From assembly GCF_032842945.2 (NCBI RefSeq), contig NZ_CP146606.1, positions 3,548,962 through 3,612,961 on the forward strand: a DNA stretch of 64,000 nt, in the 5' to 3' direction. Source of the stretch: Roseovarius sp. W115 (GTDB taxonomy: Bacteria; Pseudomonadota; Alphaproteobacteria; Rhodobacterales; Rhodobacteraceae). Below, one piece after another: positions 21,979-29,155 of the stretch; within the stretch, counting starts at the first letter, position 1, and each line of letters starts with the position of its first letter. The notes below the pieces were generated by a model, which worked only from the letters and a program-made list of their open reading frames with translations, was not told the origin of the DNA and did not search any database. Position numbers and translations under genes: made by a program.

Positions 21979-22085
21979 GTGTTTCGCATTTAACTTGAGC
22001 CATCTCAAAATGCGAAACACGCGCAACATTCGAAGGTTGCGCTGCGTTTCGCGAAAAGCTGTGATTCAGAGTTTTCCCGAAACGC
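21979..22085. repeat. Cluster of GTTTCG palindromes in the lon 3' region
   Basis: Three inverted repeats in a row: GTGTTTCGCATTT (21979-21991) with AAATGCGAAACAC (22008-22020), GCGCAAC/GTTGCGC (22021-22042) and GCGTTTCG (22044-22051) with CGAAACGC (22078-22085). They lie directly downstream of lon on the reverse strand and could end or protect its transcript. Confidence 0.6.
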
Positions 22086-22096
22086 TGTAGGTAGAA

Positions 22097-24499
22097 TTAA
22101 TGTGCTGTTGCGCCTGATCCTTGCGTGGATTGCAGCGCGGCAGCCGCCGCTTCCTCAGCCTCTTCATCCCACTCCACCGCCTGTGGCGTGTCCACCAAAG
22201 CAAGACGCAGCACTTCGCTCACGTGATCGACGGGGATGATTTCCAGCCCCTCTTTCACATTGTCGGGAATCTCCACCAGATCCTTCTCGTTGTCGCGCGG
22301 GATAAGCACCGTGGTGATCCCCCCGCGCAACGCGGCAAGAAGTTTTTCCTTCAAGCCTCCAATGGGAAGGGCCGTGCCGCGCAGGGTGACTTCACCCGTC
22401 ATGGCAATGTCCTTGCGCACCGGAATGCCGGTCAGAACCGAGACAATCGACGTCACCATGGCAAGACCGGCACTTGGCCCGTCTTTCGGCGTCGCGCCTT
22501 CGGGCACATGCACGTGGATGTCCCATTTCTCAAACTTGGGCGGCTTGACCCCGATCTTTGGTGCAATCGAACGCACATAGGAATTCGCCGCGTCGATGGA
22601 TTCCTTCATCACATCGCCCAGCTTACCGGTGGTTTTCATCCGGCCTTTACCCGGCAGACGCAGCGCCTCGATGTTCAAAAGCTCACCGCCCACCGAGGTA
22701 TAGGCCAGACCGGTCACGACACCGACCTGATCTTTTTCCTCGGCCAGGCCGAACTTGAACTTTTTCACGCCAAGGAAGTCGTCGATGTTTTCTGATGTGA
22801 CATCAACGCTTTCCGCCTCTTTGCGGATGATCTTGGTCAGCGCCTTACGCGCCACCTTGCCAATCTCACGTTCAAGATTCCGAACCCCCGCCTCACGCGT
22901 GTAGTAGCGGATGATATCGGTCAGCGCATCGTCGCCAAAGCTGAATTCCTTGGCTTTCAACCCGTGGTTCTTGATCTGCTTGGGCAGCAAATGCTGCTTG
23001 GCGATCTCGCGCTTTTCGTCCTCGGTGTAGCCGGCCAGCGGAATGATCTCCATCCGGTCCAACAGTGGCCCGGGCATGTTGTAGGAGTTCGCCGTGGTCA
23101 GGAACATCACGTTCGAGAGGTCATATTCGACCTCCATATAGTGATCGACAAAGGTCGAATTCTGTTCGGGATCAAGAACTTCGAGCATGGCCGAGGCCGG
23201 GTCACCCCGGAAATCCTGACCCATCTTGTCGATCTCATCCAAAAGAATGAGCGGATTGGTCGTCTTGGCCTTTTTCAGCGCCTGAATGATCTTACCGGGC
23301 ATTGAGCCGATATAAGTCCGGCGGTGACCGCGAATTTCGCTTTCATCACGCACGCCACCCAAAGAGATGCGAATAAATTCGCGCCCGGTGGCCTTCGCCA
23401 CGGATTGACCCAGGGACGTCTTGCCAACACCCGGAGGACCAACAAGGCACAGGATCGGGCCCTTGAGTTTCTTCGAGCGCTGCTGCACCGCAAGATACTC
23501 GACGATACGTTCCTTCACCTTTTCAAGGCCATAGTGGTCATTGTCGAGCACATCCTGCGCGCGACTGAGGTCCTTTTTGACCCGGCTTTTCACACCCCAT
23601 GGAATCGACAGCATCCAATCGAGGTAGTTGCGCACCACGGTGGCCTCGGCCGACATGGGGCTCATGTTCTTGAGCTTTTTCAGCTCGCCATCGACCTTCT
23701 CACGCGCCTCTTTCGAGAGCTTGGTGTTGGCGATTTTCTCTTCAAGCTCAGCGATTTCGCCCTCGCCCTCTTCGCCATCGCCCAATTCCTTCTGAATGGC
23801 CTTCATTTGCTCATTCAGGTAGTATTCACGCTGAGTGCGCTCCATCTGGGATTTGACGCGGGTCTTGATCTTTTTCTCGACCTGAAGCACCGACATCTCG
23901 CCCTGCATCAGACCGTAAACCTTCTCAAGACGTTCGCTCACCGAGAGCGTTTCCAAAAGCTCCTGCTTTTGGTCCACTTCAATGCCCAGATGCCCCGACA
24001 CAAGATCGGCCAGCTTGGCCGCATCATCGGCCTCGGTCACGGCCGCCAACGCCTCTTCGGGGATGTTTTTCTTGATCTTGGCGTAGCGTGCGAATTCATC
24101 CGTCACCGTGCGCAACAACGCCTCAATCGTTGCGGCATCGCCCGGCATCTCGGTCAGATACTCGGCGCGAGCCTCAAAAAAGTTTGGATTTTCAATGTAA
24201 TCCGAGATTTTCACACGGCTCACGCCCTCAACCAGCACTTTGACCGTGCTGTCGGGCAGTTTGAGCAGCTGCAGCACATTGGCCAGCACACCGGTGTTGT
24301 AAATGCCGTCAGATGTCGGATCGTCCTCAGATGGATCAATCTGACTGCTCAGCAGGATTTGTTTGTCATCCTGCATCACCTCTTCCAGCGCGCGCACCGA
24401 TTTTTCACGGCCCACGAAAAGCGGCACGATCATATGTGGAAACACCACAATATCGCGCAGCGGCAGCACTGGGTAAGAGGCGTTAAGGGGATCTTTCAT
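22097..24499 (-). CDS. lon: ATP-dependent protease Lon
   Basis: Cytoplasmic AAA+ serine protease that degrades misfolded and regulatory proteins. 800 residues from ATG 24499: N-terminal substrate domain (PVLPLRDIVVFPHM), coiled region, Walker A GPPGVGKTS, Walker B LILLDEIDKM, and the Ser-Lys protease domain with the serine in PKDGPSAGLAM and the lysine in GGLKEKLLAA. The 55 residues of open frame before this ATG are non-coding in character. A sigma-32-type promoter lies 81-109 bases upstream. Confidence 0.97.
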   Translation of the reverse strand: MKDPLNASYPVLPLRDIVVFPHMIVPLFVGREKSVRALEEVMQDDKQILLSSQIDPSEDDPTSDGIYNTGVLANVLQLLKLPDSTVKVLVEGVSRVKISDYIENPNFFEARAEYLTEMPGDAATIEALLRTVTDEFARYAKIKKNIPEEALAAVTEADDAAKLADLVSGHLGIEVDQKQELLETLSVSERLEKVYGLMQGEMSVLQVEKKIKTRVKSQMERTQREYYLNEQMKAIQKELGDGEEGEGEIAELEEKIANTKLSKEAREKVDGELKKLKNMSPMSAEATVVRNYLDWMLSIPWGVKSRVKKDLSRAQDVLDNDHYGLEKVKERIVEYLAVQQRSKKLKGPILCLVGPPGVGKTSLGQSVAKATGREFIRISLGGVRDESEIRGHRRTYIGSMPGKIIQALKKAKTTNPLILLDEIDKMGQDFRGDPASAMLEVLDPEQNSTFVDHYMEVEYDLSNVMFLTTANSYNMPGPLLDRMEIIPLAGYTEDEKREIAKQHLLPKQIKNHGLKAKEFSFGDDALTDIIRYYTREAGVRNLEREIGKVARKALTKIIRKEAESVDVTSENIDDFLGVKKFKFGLAEEKDQVGVVTGLAYTSVGGELLNIEALRLPGKGRMKTTGKLGDVMKESIDAANSYVRSIAPKIGVKPPKFEKWDIHVHVPEGATPKDGPSAGLAMVTSIVSVLTGIPVRKDIAMTGEVTLRGTALPIGGLKEKLLAALRGGITTVLIPRDNEKDLVEIPDNVKEGLEIIPVDHVSEVLRLALVDTPQAVEWDEEAEEAAAAALQSTQGSGATAH

Positions 24500-24579
24500 G
24501 CTCGATATCCTATACTCGCAAAAAGGCTCTGGTCCCGACTTGGCGGCAACGCCCGGCCTTTTCCGTTTCGATTTGGTTA

Positions 24580-24608
24580 ATCTGGGGCGATGCCCGCCCT
24601 GTTTCAAC
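24580..24608 (-). promoter_or_regulatory. Putative sigma-32 (RpoH) heat-shock promoter of lon
   Basis: On the reverse strand, GTTGAAA (24602-24608), a 14-base spacer, then CCCCAGAT (24580-24587). The RpoH consensus is CTTGAAA, 11-16 bases, CCCCATNT, so it differs at two positions. lon is a classic heat-shock gene. Confidence 0.7.
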
Positions 24609-24714
24609 CTTGGTCGGCTTATATGGGGTCGTTTTACCTGTGGCGCCGACAATGCCGTGCGCACAGCGCTGGCACAAGCGCGAATTCAATCAAATTTCAG
24701 GTTTGTTTAAGGGT

Positions 24715-24783
24715 TCAGGCCAAAACGGACGCTGCCAAAACGGCGACAGAAATCCAACTGGCGGTAAATACGGCAAATGGCAT
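24715..24783 (-). CDS. 22-residue hydrophobic peptide A (tandem family of three)
   Basis: Too short for usual gene calling. The ATG at 24783 has GAGGA about eight bases upstream. The peptide begins MPFAVFTASW and ends ASVLA, followed by TGA. It shares M-x-F-A-x-F-x-x-S-W, an Ala at 14 and 17, and a final Leu-Ala with peptides B and C, all exactly 22 residues. One hydrophobic helix with no charged residue suggests a small membrane peptide. Function unknown: type I toxin-like or stress peptide are possible. Confidence 0.6.
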   Translation of the reverse strand: MPFAVFTASWISVAVLAASVLA

Positions 24784-24814
24784 GGTCAGGTCCTCACTAG
24801 TTACACTTCAAACT

Positions 24815-24884
24815 AAGAAAGGACCGCACACGCGCCTAGTCAGGTTACCCTGACTTTTGGTCACATAGACGCGCGTGCGGTTCC
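24815..24884 (-). terminator. Hairpin terminator between peptide genes B and A
   Basis: On the reverse strand, a GGAACCGCACGCGCG-type arm (24867-24884) pairs imperfectly with 24821-24837, followed by TTTCTT. Its loop holds a second perfect hairpin, GTCAGG/CCTGAC (24839-24854). Confidence 0.65.
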
Positions 24885-24899
24885 AAAAATCCGGCGAGG

Positions 24900-24968
24900 T
24901 CAGGCCAGCAGAGAAATTGCGACCATCGCCATAAAGGCCCAGGAAAAGGAAAAGACAGCAAAAGACAT
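24900..24968 (-). CDS. 22-residue hydrophobic peptide B
   Basis: ATG 24968 to TGA 24900. It begins MSFAVFSFSW and ends ISLLA. It is the most diverged of the three but keeps length, the FA-x-F-x-x-SW core and the Leu-Ala end. A weak GGGA lies about ten bases upstream. The gene is followed by its own hairpin terminator at 24815-24884, which supports a separate short transcript. Confidence 0.55.
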   Translation of the reverse strand: MSFAVFSFSWAFMAMVAISLLA

Positions 24969-25066
24969 TTTATCGGTTCCCATCAACCGGGCGTGAACCG
25001 CCCGTGAAACCGAAGGTGCATGCAAAACCTTCTCAAAGGGTAAACGGATCATAACGAACCTTAACT

Positions 25067-25135
25067 TTACGCCAGAACAGCGACCGCCAAAACGGCTGCT
25101 GACATCCAGCTCACAGCAAACATTGCAAAAGGCAT
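25067..25135 (-). CDS. 22-residue hydrophobic peptide C
   Basis: ATG 25135 to TAA 25067. It begins MPFAMFAVSW and ends VAVLA; 15 of 22 positions are identical to peptide A. The upstream GAGTGA is a weak ribosome site. Downstream (toward 24980) are two small hairpins, GAAGGT/ACCTTC (about 25013-25033) and CGGGCG/CGCCCG (about 24988-25005). It lies 125 bases beyond the tgt stop and could be read from tgt or from its own promoter. Confidence 0.55.
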   Translation of the reverse strand: MPFAMFAVSWMSAAVLAVAVLA

Positions 25136-25260
25136 AATACTATCACTCACAGACATCACTAAAACACGGGTATCCTACCCCGAGTCAGGCGATATCACCT
25201 AGCAAGAATCCGCCGATGGGGCAGAAACGGACTGATGCCAAAATCGGGATAATGCAGTTT

Positions 25261-26385
25261 TCAGAGCGGATCGATGTCGCCACGGGCGCGTTCCGCATGG
25301 AAGTTTTCTTCCCACGCGGCAAAATTTCTATTGGCTATCGCGCTGCGCATTCCATCCATAACATCCTGATAATACTGCAAATTATGCCATGTCAGCAGCA
25401 TGGAGCTTAAAATTTCCTGACTGCGAAACAGATGATGCAGATAGGCGCGCGAGTAGTTGCGGCAAGCAGGACAGGAACACGCCTCATCCAGCGGACGTGT
25501 GTCATCCATGTGACGCGCGTTCTTGATATTGAGCTGTCCATACCGGGTGAAAACTTGCCCCGTGCGCCCCGAACGAGAGGGCAAAACACAGTCCATCATG
25601 TCAATGCCGCGCTTCACGGCGCCCACAATATCGTCAGGTTTGCCAACCCCCATCAGGTAGCGTGGTTTGTCCTTTGGCAGGCTGTCGCAGGCATAATCCA
25701 GCACGCCAAACATGGCCTCCTGCCCTTCCCCCACGGCAAGGCCGCCGACGGCATAGCCATCAAACCCAATCTCAACCAGCGCCTTGGCGCTTTCTTCGCG
25801 CAGCTCTCGCGTCACGCCGCCCTGCATAATGCCGAAAAGCGCATGTCCGGGCCGGTCGCCGAATGCATCCTTCGACCGCTCCGCCCACCGCATCGACAGG
25901 CGCATGGCCCGCGCCACCTCTTCGTCCGTGGCTGGCAGTGCGGGGCACTCATCGAAACACATCACGATGTCCGAGCCCAAAAGCGCCTGAATTTCCATCG
26001 AGCGTTCCGGCGTCAACTCATATTTGGACCCATCAATATGGCTCTTAAACGTCACGCCCTTTTCGGTCAGTTTTCTTAACCCTGCCAGGCTCATCACCTG
26101 AAACCCGCCGCTGTCGGTCAGGATGGGCCGGTCCCAGTTCATGAACCTGTGCAACCCGCCAAGGGACGCAACGCGTTCTGCGCCCGGACGCAGCATCAGG
26201 TGATAGGTATTGCCCAACAGGATATCCGCGCCGGTCTCACGCACACTTTCCGGCATCATCGCCTTGACCGTCGCCGCCGTGCCCACAGGCATGAAAGCGG
26301 GCGTGCGGATGTCTCCACGCGGCGTGTTGATTACACCAGTACGTGCCGAGCCATCTGTGGCCTGCAAATCAAAAGAAAAACCCAA
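25261..26385 (-). CDS. tgt: Queuine tRNA-ribosyltransferase
   Basis: Exchanges guanine-34 for a queuosine precursor in tRNAs with GUN anticodons, such as the two tRNA-Asp here. 374 residues with the nucleophile region [22 protein letters not shown] and the zinc site [16 protein letters not shown]. The start is a TTG (26385); no better ATG exists before MPVGTAAT, and the residues after the TTG ([10 protein letters not shown]) already fit the family. The ribosome site is weak. Confidence 0.93.
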
Positions 26386-26464
26386 TCGACACCCGTTTCT
26401 TACACTTTCGCCTCTCTCTAAAGCGGTTTACCTTACATTGTAAATTCGCCGTGAGCACATATAT

Positions 26465-26482
26465 TGTATACTGTAGTATACA
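26465..26482. promoter_or_regulatory. Perfect TGTATAC inverted repeat, putative operator
   Basis: TGTATAC-TGTA-GTATACA, seven-base arms with a four-base centre, 17 bases before the SPFH gene start and 80 bases before tgt. The spacing and sequence resemble operators of GntR-type repressors. The regulator is not in this window. Confidence 0.5.
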
Positions 26483-26498
26483 TTAAAGAGGGACCTAC

Positions 26499-27389
26499 AT
26501 GACAGAAGATCAAATCATCAATCTGCTTTCTTCGAACCTGATTTACATCCTGCTCGCCTTTCTTCTTTTCCTTGTCATTTTCAAGGGCATCAAGATTGTT
26601 CCCCAATCGGAACAACATGTGGTCGAACGCTTTGGCCGCCTGCGCTCGGTGCTTGGGCCTGGCATCAACTTTATCGTGCCTTTTCTGGACGTTGTGCGAC
26701 ACAAGATATCCATTCTTGAACGCCAACTTCCCAATGCCAGCCAGGACGCCATCACCAAGGACAACGTGCTGGTGCAGGTGGAAACCTCTGTCTTCTACCG
26801 CATCACGCAACCCGAAAAGACCGTCTACCGGATCCGCGATGTAGATGCCGCGATCGCCACCACTGTAGCCGGGATCGTGCGGGCCGAAATTGGTAAAATG
26901 GATCTTGATGATGTGCAGGCCAACCGAAATCAGCTGATCTCGACCATCAAAATCCTGGTCGAAAGTGCCGTGGATGATTGGGGAATCGAAGTCACCCGCG
27001 CTGAAATCCTCGATGTGAACCTCGATCAGGCGACGCGTGATGCCATGCTGCAACAGCTCAACGCCGAACGTGCGCGCCGGGCGCAGGTGACTGAAGCCGA
27101 AGGGCAGCGCCGCGCTGTGGAGTTGGCTGCCGATGCCGAGCTTTATGCAGCCCAGAAAGCCGCCGAAGCCCGCCGGGTGGAAGCCGATGCCGAAGCTTAC
27201 GCAACCGGCGTTGTCGCCAAAGCGATTGCCGATAACGGTCTGGAGGCCGCGCAGTATCAGGTCGCCCTGAAACAGGTGGAGTCGCTCAACGCATTGGGCC
27301 AAGGCCCGTCCTCATCCACCGTTCTGGTGCCCGCGCAGGCGCTTGAAGCCTTCGGAAATGCCTTCAACATGCTGAAAGGAAAGTCATAA
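26499..27389 (+). CDS. SPFH/Band 7 family membrane protein (QmcA/stomatin-like)
   Basis: Forms membrane-microdomain or protease-modulating assemblies. 296 residues: one N-terminal membrane helix (about 10-29, IYILLAFLLFLVIFKGI), an SPFH domain (FKGIKIVPQSEQHVVERFGR onward to about 190), then an Ala/Glu-rich coiled coil (190-265). AGAGGGA precedes the ATG. The stop overlaps the NfeD gene start, the common stomatin-NfeD operon layout. Confidence 0.92.
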   Translation: MTEDQIINLLSSNLIYILLAFLLFLVIFKGIKIVPQSEQHVVERFGRLRSVLGPGINFIVPFLDVVRHKISILERQLPNASQDAITKDNVLVQVETSVFYRITQPEKTVYRIRDVDAAIATTVAGIVRAEIGKMDLDDVQANRNQLISTIKILVESAVDDWGIEVTRAEILDVNLDQATRDAMLQQLNAERARRAQVTEAEGQRRAVELAADAELYAAQKAAEARRVEADAEAYATGVVAKAIADNGLEAAQYQVALKQVESLNALGQGPSSSTVLVPAQALEAFGNAFNMLKGKS

Positions 27390-27658
27390 TGGCCTGGGTA
27401 TCACTCTGGTGGGTCTGGCTTTGCGCAGCACTCGTGTTGGCCATTCTCGAACTCCTGGTGCCAAGCTATATCTTCCTTGGCATCGCCGTGGGCGCTGCCA
27501 TCATGGCGGGCATAGTGGTCATCTTTCCGCCGCTTGGGGTGTCGACCCTTATGGCCATATTCGCAGCACTTTCCCTCGTCTCTTGGCTTGTCTTGCGGCG
27601 CATTTTCCGGTCTCCCGATGACCAGACGCGCATCGTGCACGAGGACGTCAACAAATAA
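27389..27658 (+). CDS. NfeD family protein
   Basis: 89 residues: two or three membrane helices (about 5-25, 28-47, 50-70) and a short cytoplasmic tail. It starts at the last base of the SPFH stop codon, so it is translationally coupled. This is the short NfeD form; the usual C-terminal OB-fold domain is largely absent, ending at IVHEDVNK. Partner of the SPFH protein. Confidence 0.85.
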   Translation: MAWVSLWWVWLCAALVLAILELLVPSYIFLGIAVGAAIMAGIVVIFPPLGVSTLMAIFAALSLVSWLVLRRIFRSPDDQTRIVHEDVNK

Positions 27659-27751
27659 GCGCCCTTGAGTTGGCGCAGGATACATGTTGGGATCAGGGCT
27701 CGGCCGGAAGACGTCTCCGCGCCGGGCCCTTGAATTTAAAGCAGGTTTCTT

Positions 27752-29155
27752 ATGGCTGACAGCTCCACTCCCGAAACACTTCAATTTGGTTGGGAAGAAT
27801 GGATCAGCCTGCCCGATCTGGGCGTCCCTGCCCTGCGTGCCAAAGTGGATACCGGCGCGCGCACCTCGGCGCTGCATGCCTTTGATATCGAAACCTTTGG
27901 CTCTGCAGCCAAACCCAAGGTGCGGTTCACTGTGCATCCCATTCCGGGCCGCGATGATCTGGTGATCCCCTGCTCGGCCCCCATCGTGGACCGTCGCGAA
28001 GTGGCCAGTTCAAACGGTGAAAAAGAACTGCGCTTTGTGATCGAAAGCACGATGGAAGTGGCCGGGCAAAGCTGGCCCATTGAGATCACGCTGACCAACC
28101 GGTCCTCAATGACAAGCCGGATGCTCTTGGGGCGACAGGCGATGAAGGATCACATTTCCATTGCAGCTACGGATCGGTTTCTGCAGCCCGAGCTCAATTA
28201 CGATGTCTATCACACCAAGCGCATGCGCGAGGTCCAGCCCAATCGCGCCCTGCGCATTGCCGTGCTGAGCCGGGAGGACAATTACTCGACCAGACGGCTT
28301 GTGGAAGAGGGTGAAAAGCGCGGCCATGCGGTTGAGGTGATCAACACAACCCGTTGTTATATGGCGATAAACACGCTGGCCCCTGAAGTGCATTACGATG
28401 GTAAGCGCCTGCCGCGCTATGACGCCGTGATCCCGCGCATCGGCGCCTCGATCACCGCTTATGGCGCGGCTGTCATCCGCCAGTTTGAAACCATCGGCAC
28501 CTATTGTGTGAACCCGTCGGCAGGCATCACCGCCAGCCGGGACAAGCTCTACGCACATCAGATCATGGCGCGCGCCAAGGTTGGGATGCCCAACACAGCC
28601 TTTGCCGCCTCGCCCCAGGACACCGGCAATCTCATCGGGTTGGTGGGCACGGCACCGTTGATCGTGAAACTTCTGGAATCCACCCAAGGCAAGGGCGTTG
28701 TTCTGGCAGAAACCAAAAAGGCCGCCGAGTCGGTGATCGACGCCTTTCGCGGGCTCAAGGCCAACTTCCTCGTGCAGGATTTCGTCAAGGAGGCCGCAGG
28801 TGAAGATATCCGCTGCCTGGTCATTGGCGGCAAGGTCGTCGCCTCAATGAAACGCACCGGGGCCGAGGGAGATTTTCGCTCGAACCTGCACCGCGGCGGA
28901 TCGGCCAAGTCGGTGCGCATCACCAAAACCGAACGCGAAACCGCCCTGCGCGCGGCCAAGTCATTTGGGCTTGGCCTGGCTGGTGTGGACCTTTTGCGCG
29001 CTGAGGCTGGACCCAAAGTGCTGGAGGTCAATTCCTCGCCGGGCATGGAAGGGATCGAGACATCCACGGGTAAAAATATTGTCGGTATGCTCTATGAAGA
29101 TATCGAAGCACGTGTGCGTCCGGCGCCAATTCGCAGGCGGAAAGCGGCGAAATAG
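27752..29155 (+). CDS. rimK: RimB-RimK fusion: retropepsin-like protease domain + ATP-grasp ligase
   Basis: 467 residues. Residues about 15-150 are a RimB/ATP-dependent zinc protease-type domain with the aspartic-protease motif [11 protein letters not shown]. From about 165 it is an ATP-grasp ligase like RimK, which adds glutamates to ribosomal protein S6, with [30 protein letters not shown] and [12 protein letters not shown]. In Pseudomonas, RimB and RimK are separate interacting proteins. The true amino acid ligated here is unproven. Confidence 0.88.

Follow-up and report, generated by a model that had tools for sequence, protein, structure and literature searches.

Tandem genes for 22-residue putative membrane peptides between tgt and lon in Roseovarius sp. 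W115 and related Rhodobacteraceae

Between tgt and lon of Roseovarius sp. W115 lie three short reading frames in tandem, which raises two questions: do such frames encode peptides, and what could proteins of 22 residues do? The frames, here called A, B, and C, are part of a 64,000-nucleotide stretch of DNA that was analyzed as a whole (the window), where the minus-strand gene order is tgt-C-B-A-lon (Table 1). Re-reading of the sequence bore out the coordinates, lengths, and strand that an earlier note on this DNA had given for the three frames, and realignment returned the A–C identity claimed there, 15 of 22 residues (46 of 66 nucleotides). A and B are alike at 12 of 22 residues (37 of 66 nucleotides), and B and C at 10 of 22 (36 of 66 nucleotides). 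The three 22-residue peptides have mean Kyte-Doolittle values of 1.89–2.01. B is contained in a longer frame of 50 amino acids that starts at 25052, and GTG/ATG codons are present upstream of the start of C; judged from the aligned members, the 22-codon starts of A, B, and C appear to be those common to the family.

Table 1 Peptide genes, flanking genes, and putative control elements in the tgt-lon interval of the window
Feature	Position	Strand	Details
Peptide gene A	24715–24783	−	MPFAVFTASWISVAVLAASVLA; 22 codons + stop; lon-proximal; profile E 2.7e-9
Peptide gene B	24900–24968	−	MSFAVFSFSWAFMAMVAISLLA; 22 codons + stop; middle; profile E 7.6e-7
Peptide gene C	25067–25135	−	MPFAMFAVSWMSAAVLAVAVLA; 22 codons + stop; tgt-proximal; profile E 9.2e-8
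lon	22097–24499	−	start 24499 chosen by similarity
tgt (queuine tRNA-ribosyltransferase)	25261–26385	−	presumed name, in part from general knowledge
Shine-Dalgarno GAGGA of A	24791–24795	−	read from sequence
Shine-Dalgarno-like GATGGGAA of B (GGGAA)	24977–24984	−	read from sequence
Dyad AGTCAGGGTAACCTGACTAGG upstream of A	24835–24855	−	instance of the family's RGT[CA]AGG-N4-CC element
Promoter-like TAGGCG-N17-TAGTTT for A	24810–24838	−	pattern count and sequence reading
Promoter-like TAGGTG-N18-TAGGAT for C	25172–25201	−	read from sequence; same arrangement before C in genomes G275 and G227
Long palindrome, then T-rich tail TCCTTTCTT	24824–24880	−	candidate terminator of B; z = −2.9
Terminator-like site across the B stop codon	24891–24908	−	consensus scan
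RpoH-like promoter of lon, TTGAAAC-N13-CCCC	24584–24607	−	downstream of A; read from sequence

A DNA pattern that fits A, B, and C has exactly three matches in the 3.7-Mb genome, all inside 421 bp, and its reversed control has none. When one genome from each of 197 other genera was searched, a single further match was obtained, at a sequence encoding MVFAVFALWW that does not match the family profile. Within the genus, the pattern is present in 5 of the 84 genomes, and in two of these it occurs three times, as in the window. A first profile, built from 17 peptides from the window and related loci, matched 28 of the 84 congeneric genomes. One of these, in which the match spans 12 residues of a frame of 686 residues, was left out, and the 27 genomes kept carry 40 copies (three genomes with three, seven with two, and seventeen with one). 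All 27 have a copy in the tgt-lon interval, which holds 39 of the 40, and a copy is also found there where other sequence has entered the interval. Because the profile is blind to genome position, this shared locus is independent support for the family. The one copy found elsewhere, the second of genome G200, lies on contig 38 (139204–139269), downstream of a recJ-like gene (named by eye), and has a promoter-like TAGGAG-N18-TATGCT of its own.

A wider profile of 32 peptides was scanned over 394 genomes of the bacterial family and recovered the window's own copies and only four other matches at E < 1e-5. Each of the four covers the full length and lies in the tgt-lon interval; two (in G408 and G455) were absent from the profile. 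The peptide family is found in 4 of the 392 other genera sampled, in all four between tgt and lon. Tateyamaria sp. ANG-S1 has a copy as well. Seven matches at E 0.01–0.035 were all partial, with neither tgt nor lon nearby, and among 385 genomes drawn from the class the only match other than that of the own genome spans 11 residues (E 0.0095).

Of the 84 congeneric genomes, 57 yielded no member, as did 388 of the 392 other genera sampled. The lon-upstream regions of 49 of those 57 genomes contain no hydrophobic uncharged short frame, and 80 such regions of other genera contain four, two of which are family members; one locus could not be oriented in this survey. Going by these sequences, the absence of the family from profile-negative genomes looks real. 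Missing from so many genomes, the family is either dispensable or niche-specific; for an obligate subunit, retention would be expected. In a tree of tgt from 30 congeneric and 3 other genomes, 14 of 30 inner branches lack resolution and the genus does not come out as a clade; on this tree, genomes with the peptide cluster (5 changes versus 11 when shuffled, with 0 of 500 shuffles as low) and do not form one clade. Frequent loss is the simplest reading of this patchy presence, and transfer is the alternative. A mobile element was considered and rejected, the window stretch having no match in plasmid records and peptide A none in plasmid or phage records, for which a 22-residue query is weak. 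A link to photosynthesis was likewise rejected: reaction-center genes (PF00124) are present in 15 of the 27 genomes with the peptide and in 24 of the 57 without it, one of the 24 by a partial match (Fisher p = 0.35). In a comparison that covers few lineages and ignores kinship, such genes were seen in 10 of 10 multi-copy genomes (G000, G227, G275, G204, G209, G242, G243, G263, G253, and G200) and in 5 of 17 single-copy genomes (p = 0.0004).

The peptide sequence is under purifying selection. Twelve non-overlapping pairs, picked greedily from pairs of at least 70% DNA identity, gave a pooled pN/pS of 0.23, with 53 synonymous differences over 194 sites and 36 nonsynonymous differences over 562 sites (binomial p = 2e-11). 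The comparison of genomes G243 and G204 agrees: codon positions 1 and 2 are 94.6% identical, third positions 80.4%, and the sequence outside the frames 70.0%. The three nearest genomes tell little, because neither frames nor spacers have diverged enough among them. The earlier note had set conserved frames in relatives and a ratio away from one among the tests of its proposal; the frames recur at the same tgt-lon locus in 27 of 84 congeneric genomes, and the ratio is far from one. Its view of A, B, and C as true paralogs of small, hydrophobic, uncharged type also stands. The constant tgt-lon location in relatives, the conserved face of the helix, and the promoter-like elements are additions to that note.

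Comparison of 32 members with Pfam, NCBIfam, PHROGs, and PADLOC gave no convincing profile match, and with PADLOC no match of any kind; the best scores for named families were those of DUF2759 (E 0.012, three members), phrog_6155 (0.019), PGF_CTERM (0.042), and FixQ (0.22). A profile search of the PDB gave no convincing relative either, its matches being a 15-residue partial one to 6t46, a processed quorum-sensing secretion protein (E 0.008), and two more at E 1.3. The remark that the peptide pattern fits no described family accordingly holds across these five collections. A literature search, with most subscription journals outside its scope, returned no description of the peptide family or of the upstream dyad discussed below. 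Drawn from the literature and from named-family databases, with small-protein sequence databases outside the scope, this is weak evidence that the family is new.

Conservation within the family follows a helical period. Among 39 distinct peptides registered on the tryptophan, position 3 is F or Y in all, F6 and A17 are each kept in 38, and A14 and L21 are each kept in 34; W10 is invariant also in an alignment made without this registration. The conservation moment at 100 degrees is 9.8 versus a permuted mean of 3.4 (39 peptides; p = 1.6e-4). Restriction to peptides less than 65% identical left 21 of 25 in one set (moment 9.5; p = 1e-4) and 22 of 41 in another (9.3 versus 3.3; p = 6e-5). F3, F6, and W10 are conserved partly by choice, because a pattern containing these residues served to find the first members and the rows were registered on W; without them, in columns 11–22, which lie outside the search pattern, the helical signal is weak (p 0.02–0.03). 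One face of the helix carries F3, F6, W10, V13/A14, A17, and L21 and so combines small residues (A14, A17, and often S or G at position 9) with aromatics, a mixture that is usual at helix-helix interfaces. Some members have K, H, or R at position 2; otherwise, the cores of the peptides are uncharged. By length and composition, they would belong to the small single-pass membrane proteins, which have fewer than 50 residues and one hydrophobic helix. We are highly confident that A, B, and C represent a real family of coding genes whose peptides are of the membrane-helix type.

How these genes might be expressed was read from the DNA around them. The intergenic DNA had been described as not alike between copies; this is correct for whole spacers, but copies in relatives have upstream elements in common. 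The promoter-like pattern was formed after the sequences had been viewed, and the 42 copies counted are related, so that the following motif counts are not independent. In 20 of 42 copies, TAGGNN-N17/18-TANNNT precedes the conserved core by 55–68 bp, compared with a mean of 1.05 and a maximum of 4 in 200 mononucleotide shuffles that keep base composition only (spacers of 16–19 allowed). A dyad, RGTNNGG-N4-CC, lies at −71 to −87 from the core in 19 of 42 copies, 17 of them with RGT[CA]AGG, and is directly followed by TAGG in 11 of 18 distinct instances. Its center, at about −43 from the inferred transcription start, would on general knowledge be the place of a class II activator. The dyad was seen at a near-fixed distance from the peptide start in the window and in seven related loci, where no regulator was recognized for it. 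For B in the window, neither the dyad nor a TAGG-type promoter was seen, and the Shine-Dalgarno sequence of C, as read, is only weak.

A consensus scan of 24400–25350 found five terminator-like sites versus 1.5 expected. The long palindrome is the best fold among five stretches folded and encloses the dyad site of A; together with the site over the B stop codon, it makes the earlier suggestion that at least one gene has its own terminator plausible for B. In an alignment of a related four-genome clade read by eye, the second copy has a different conserved leader, which starts with TGAACCC and follows a terminator-like hairpin 3′ of the first copy. From these readings, the peptide genes appear to be independent units that come with promoter-like elements of their own. 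The three frames, folded together with flanking sequence, are unremarkable (z 1.25, 0.97, and −0.56), and Rfam returned nothing above its cut-offs over 22000–28000. The dyad was also considered as an RNA hairpin, and this was rejected: beyond two inner G-C pairs, only 6–10 of the 18 distinct instances pair at any given position.

Outside the peptide locus, the dyad is at chance level, because the search of ten genomes with one mismatch allowed gave 18 sites, of which ten are at the peptide locus (one per genome) and eight elsewhere, versus nine sites for the reversed control; the search established no regulon. Four of the eight sites are inside long frames and four are apparently intergenic. 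Two of the latter, GGTAAGGTTTTCCCGTATAGG in G258 and a one-mismatch match in G266, stand before one and the same gene, where the operator may have another use. Among 118 regions without the peptide, a loose form of the dyad occurs in 23, on either strand, and RGT[CA]AGG-N4-CC in two (L126 and L325), neither of which has TAGG after it; region L150 has a near match, GGTCGGG.

Two readings would deprive the peptides of a function of their own. If A, B, and C were chance frames in conserved intergenic DNA, they would be three among the 97 frames of at least 20 codons in 22000–28500; this is refuted because matches of a position-blind profile share one locus and because of the pN/pS ratio, and, with the uniqueness of the DNA pattern and the codon-position identities of G243 and G204 added, we regard its likelihood as almost nil. 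The peptide could instead be a leader or upstream frame controlling lon. As with attenuator leader peptides, short frames precede a gene on the same strand, and the nearest copy is 179–352 bp before lon in the measured loci without an intervening gene. Unlike such leaders, the peptides are cut off from lon by long opposite-strand frames in G211, G198, and Tateyamaria (peptide-to-lon distances of 1521, 1538, and 752 bp, respectively), and for this reason they are not a lon leader; the reading is contradicted for these three genomes, and read-through is possible in compact loci such as the window. Furthermore, selection acts on the amino acids, one copy (in G200) sits elsewhere, and lon has between itself and A a promoter-like TTGAA[AC]-N11-16-CCCC, which we take to be RpoH-like. 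This element precedes lon in 39 of 40 genomes that lack the peptide and in 21 of 30 lon loci of the genus, which include both peptide-bearing and peptide-free ones. Control of lon is, in our estimation, very improbable. The peptide genes are independent of both neighbors and are not a tail of tgt, from which they are separated by 0.6–2.2 kb in seven genomes. The neighbors lon and tgt are housekeeping genes, and no linked partner gene is present. As side observations, the lon element is located ~103–134 bp upstream of the lon start in 60 of 70 loci, and the opposite-strand frame that G211 and G198 have between peptide and lon is ATP-grasp-like by eye.

Other readings accept the peptides and give them a different action on the membrane. 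As type I toxins, they would depolarize it and be restrained by antisense RNAs, in the manner of Ibs/Sib or Ldr/Rdl, which likewise encode tiny hydrophobic helices in several gene copies. This reading is favored by the small size, the hydrophobicity, the absence of charge, the tandem arrangement, and the patchy presence; one source gives IbsC 19 residues and no positively charged C-terminus (PMC8309996), and another describes three of four LDR repeats in tandem, five copies of Ibs/Sib, and repeats that in both cases include a non-coding part (PMC4147584). Here, in contrast, the non-coding parts are not repeated: by inspection, the spacers between copies are unlike and contain no repeated non-coding unit, and 3′ of the frames, in one four-genome alignment read by eye, the only conserved blocks are the terminator-like hairpin, the next leader, and the lon promoter region. 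Opposite-strand promoter-like sites number 1 versus 0.7 expected. The present family also differs in having one conserved helix face, whose W10 would fit a specific partner better than bulk membrane damage, and one fixed chromosomal locus for all but one copy; the plasmid and phage record searches described above, weak as a 22-residue query is, point the same way. These points are not decisive, since a cis antisense RNA needs conservation of its promoter alone. A toxin is possible on size, hydrophobicity, and tandem copies, which make up all the positive evidence for it, and we consider it unlikely. Similarly unlikely, in our assessment, is a self-assembling peptide that lowers the membrane potential or alters membrane order under stress without an antitoxin, a role that the conserved face of small residues and aromatics would allow. 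Its model is the 27-residue YohP of E. coli, which is reported to lower the membrane potential and protect under stress (PMC12719787) and which resembles the present peptides in shape, as a short hydrophobic single helix.

The most likely reading, to which we give about an even chance, is that the peptides are modulators, that is, condition-regulated single-helix micropeptides of the inner membrane with one face against a partner helix. A, B, and C would be three separately transcribed paralogs of a Rhodobacteraceae small-protein family, each yielding an uncharged 22-residue peptide that, once translated, would insert as a single inner-membrane helix. The conserved face F3, F6, W10, V13/A14, A17, L21 would pack on another helix, that of a specific membrane-protein partner or of the peptide itself. 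By this contact, the peptide may tune a membrane complex whenever the condition that activates its promoter prevails; several copies in tandem, each behind a different promoter, would allow dose and condition to be controlled. The computed basis of this proposal consists of the family, the locus, purifying selection, the helical period, the shared upstream elements, and independence of lon and tgt. The patchy presence, the lack of a linked partner gene, and the failure of reaction-center genes to follow the peptide weigh against it. Modulation of membrane proteins by single-helix peptides is well established, as with AcrZ and CydX. These enterobacterial proteins, which act on a partner, are similarly very short with one hydrophobic helix, and KdpF presumably belongs with them. 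The peptides described here differ from all three in having 22 residues, an uncharged core, tandem copies, genes unlinked to a partner, and no profile match to a named family. More tentatively, and with rather lower probability, we propose that they are switchable membrane micro-subunits whose aromatic-alanine face docks on a single inner-membrane complex, with dedicated promoters, an activator bound at RGT[CA]AGG-N4-CC near −43, and one to three genes that, each answering its own signal, set the dose.

Peptides this small are easily overlooked by gene callers. A membrane role for 22-residue peptides of this family is a proposal, and the family offers a chart of which residues are kept, a set of genomes with and without it inside one genus (27 of 84 with), natural copy-number variants (1–3), and a candidate operator, so that its function is directly testable. 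The candidate operator could, in turn, lead to its regulator in marine roseobacters.
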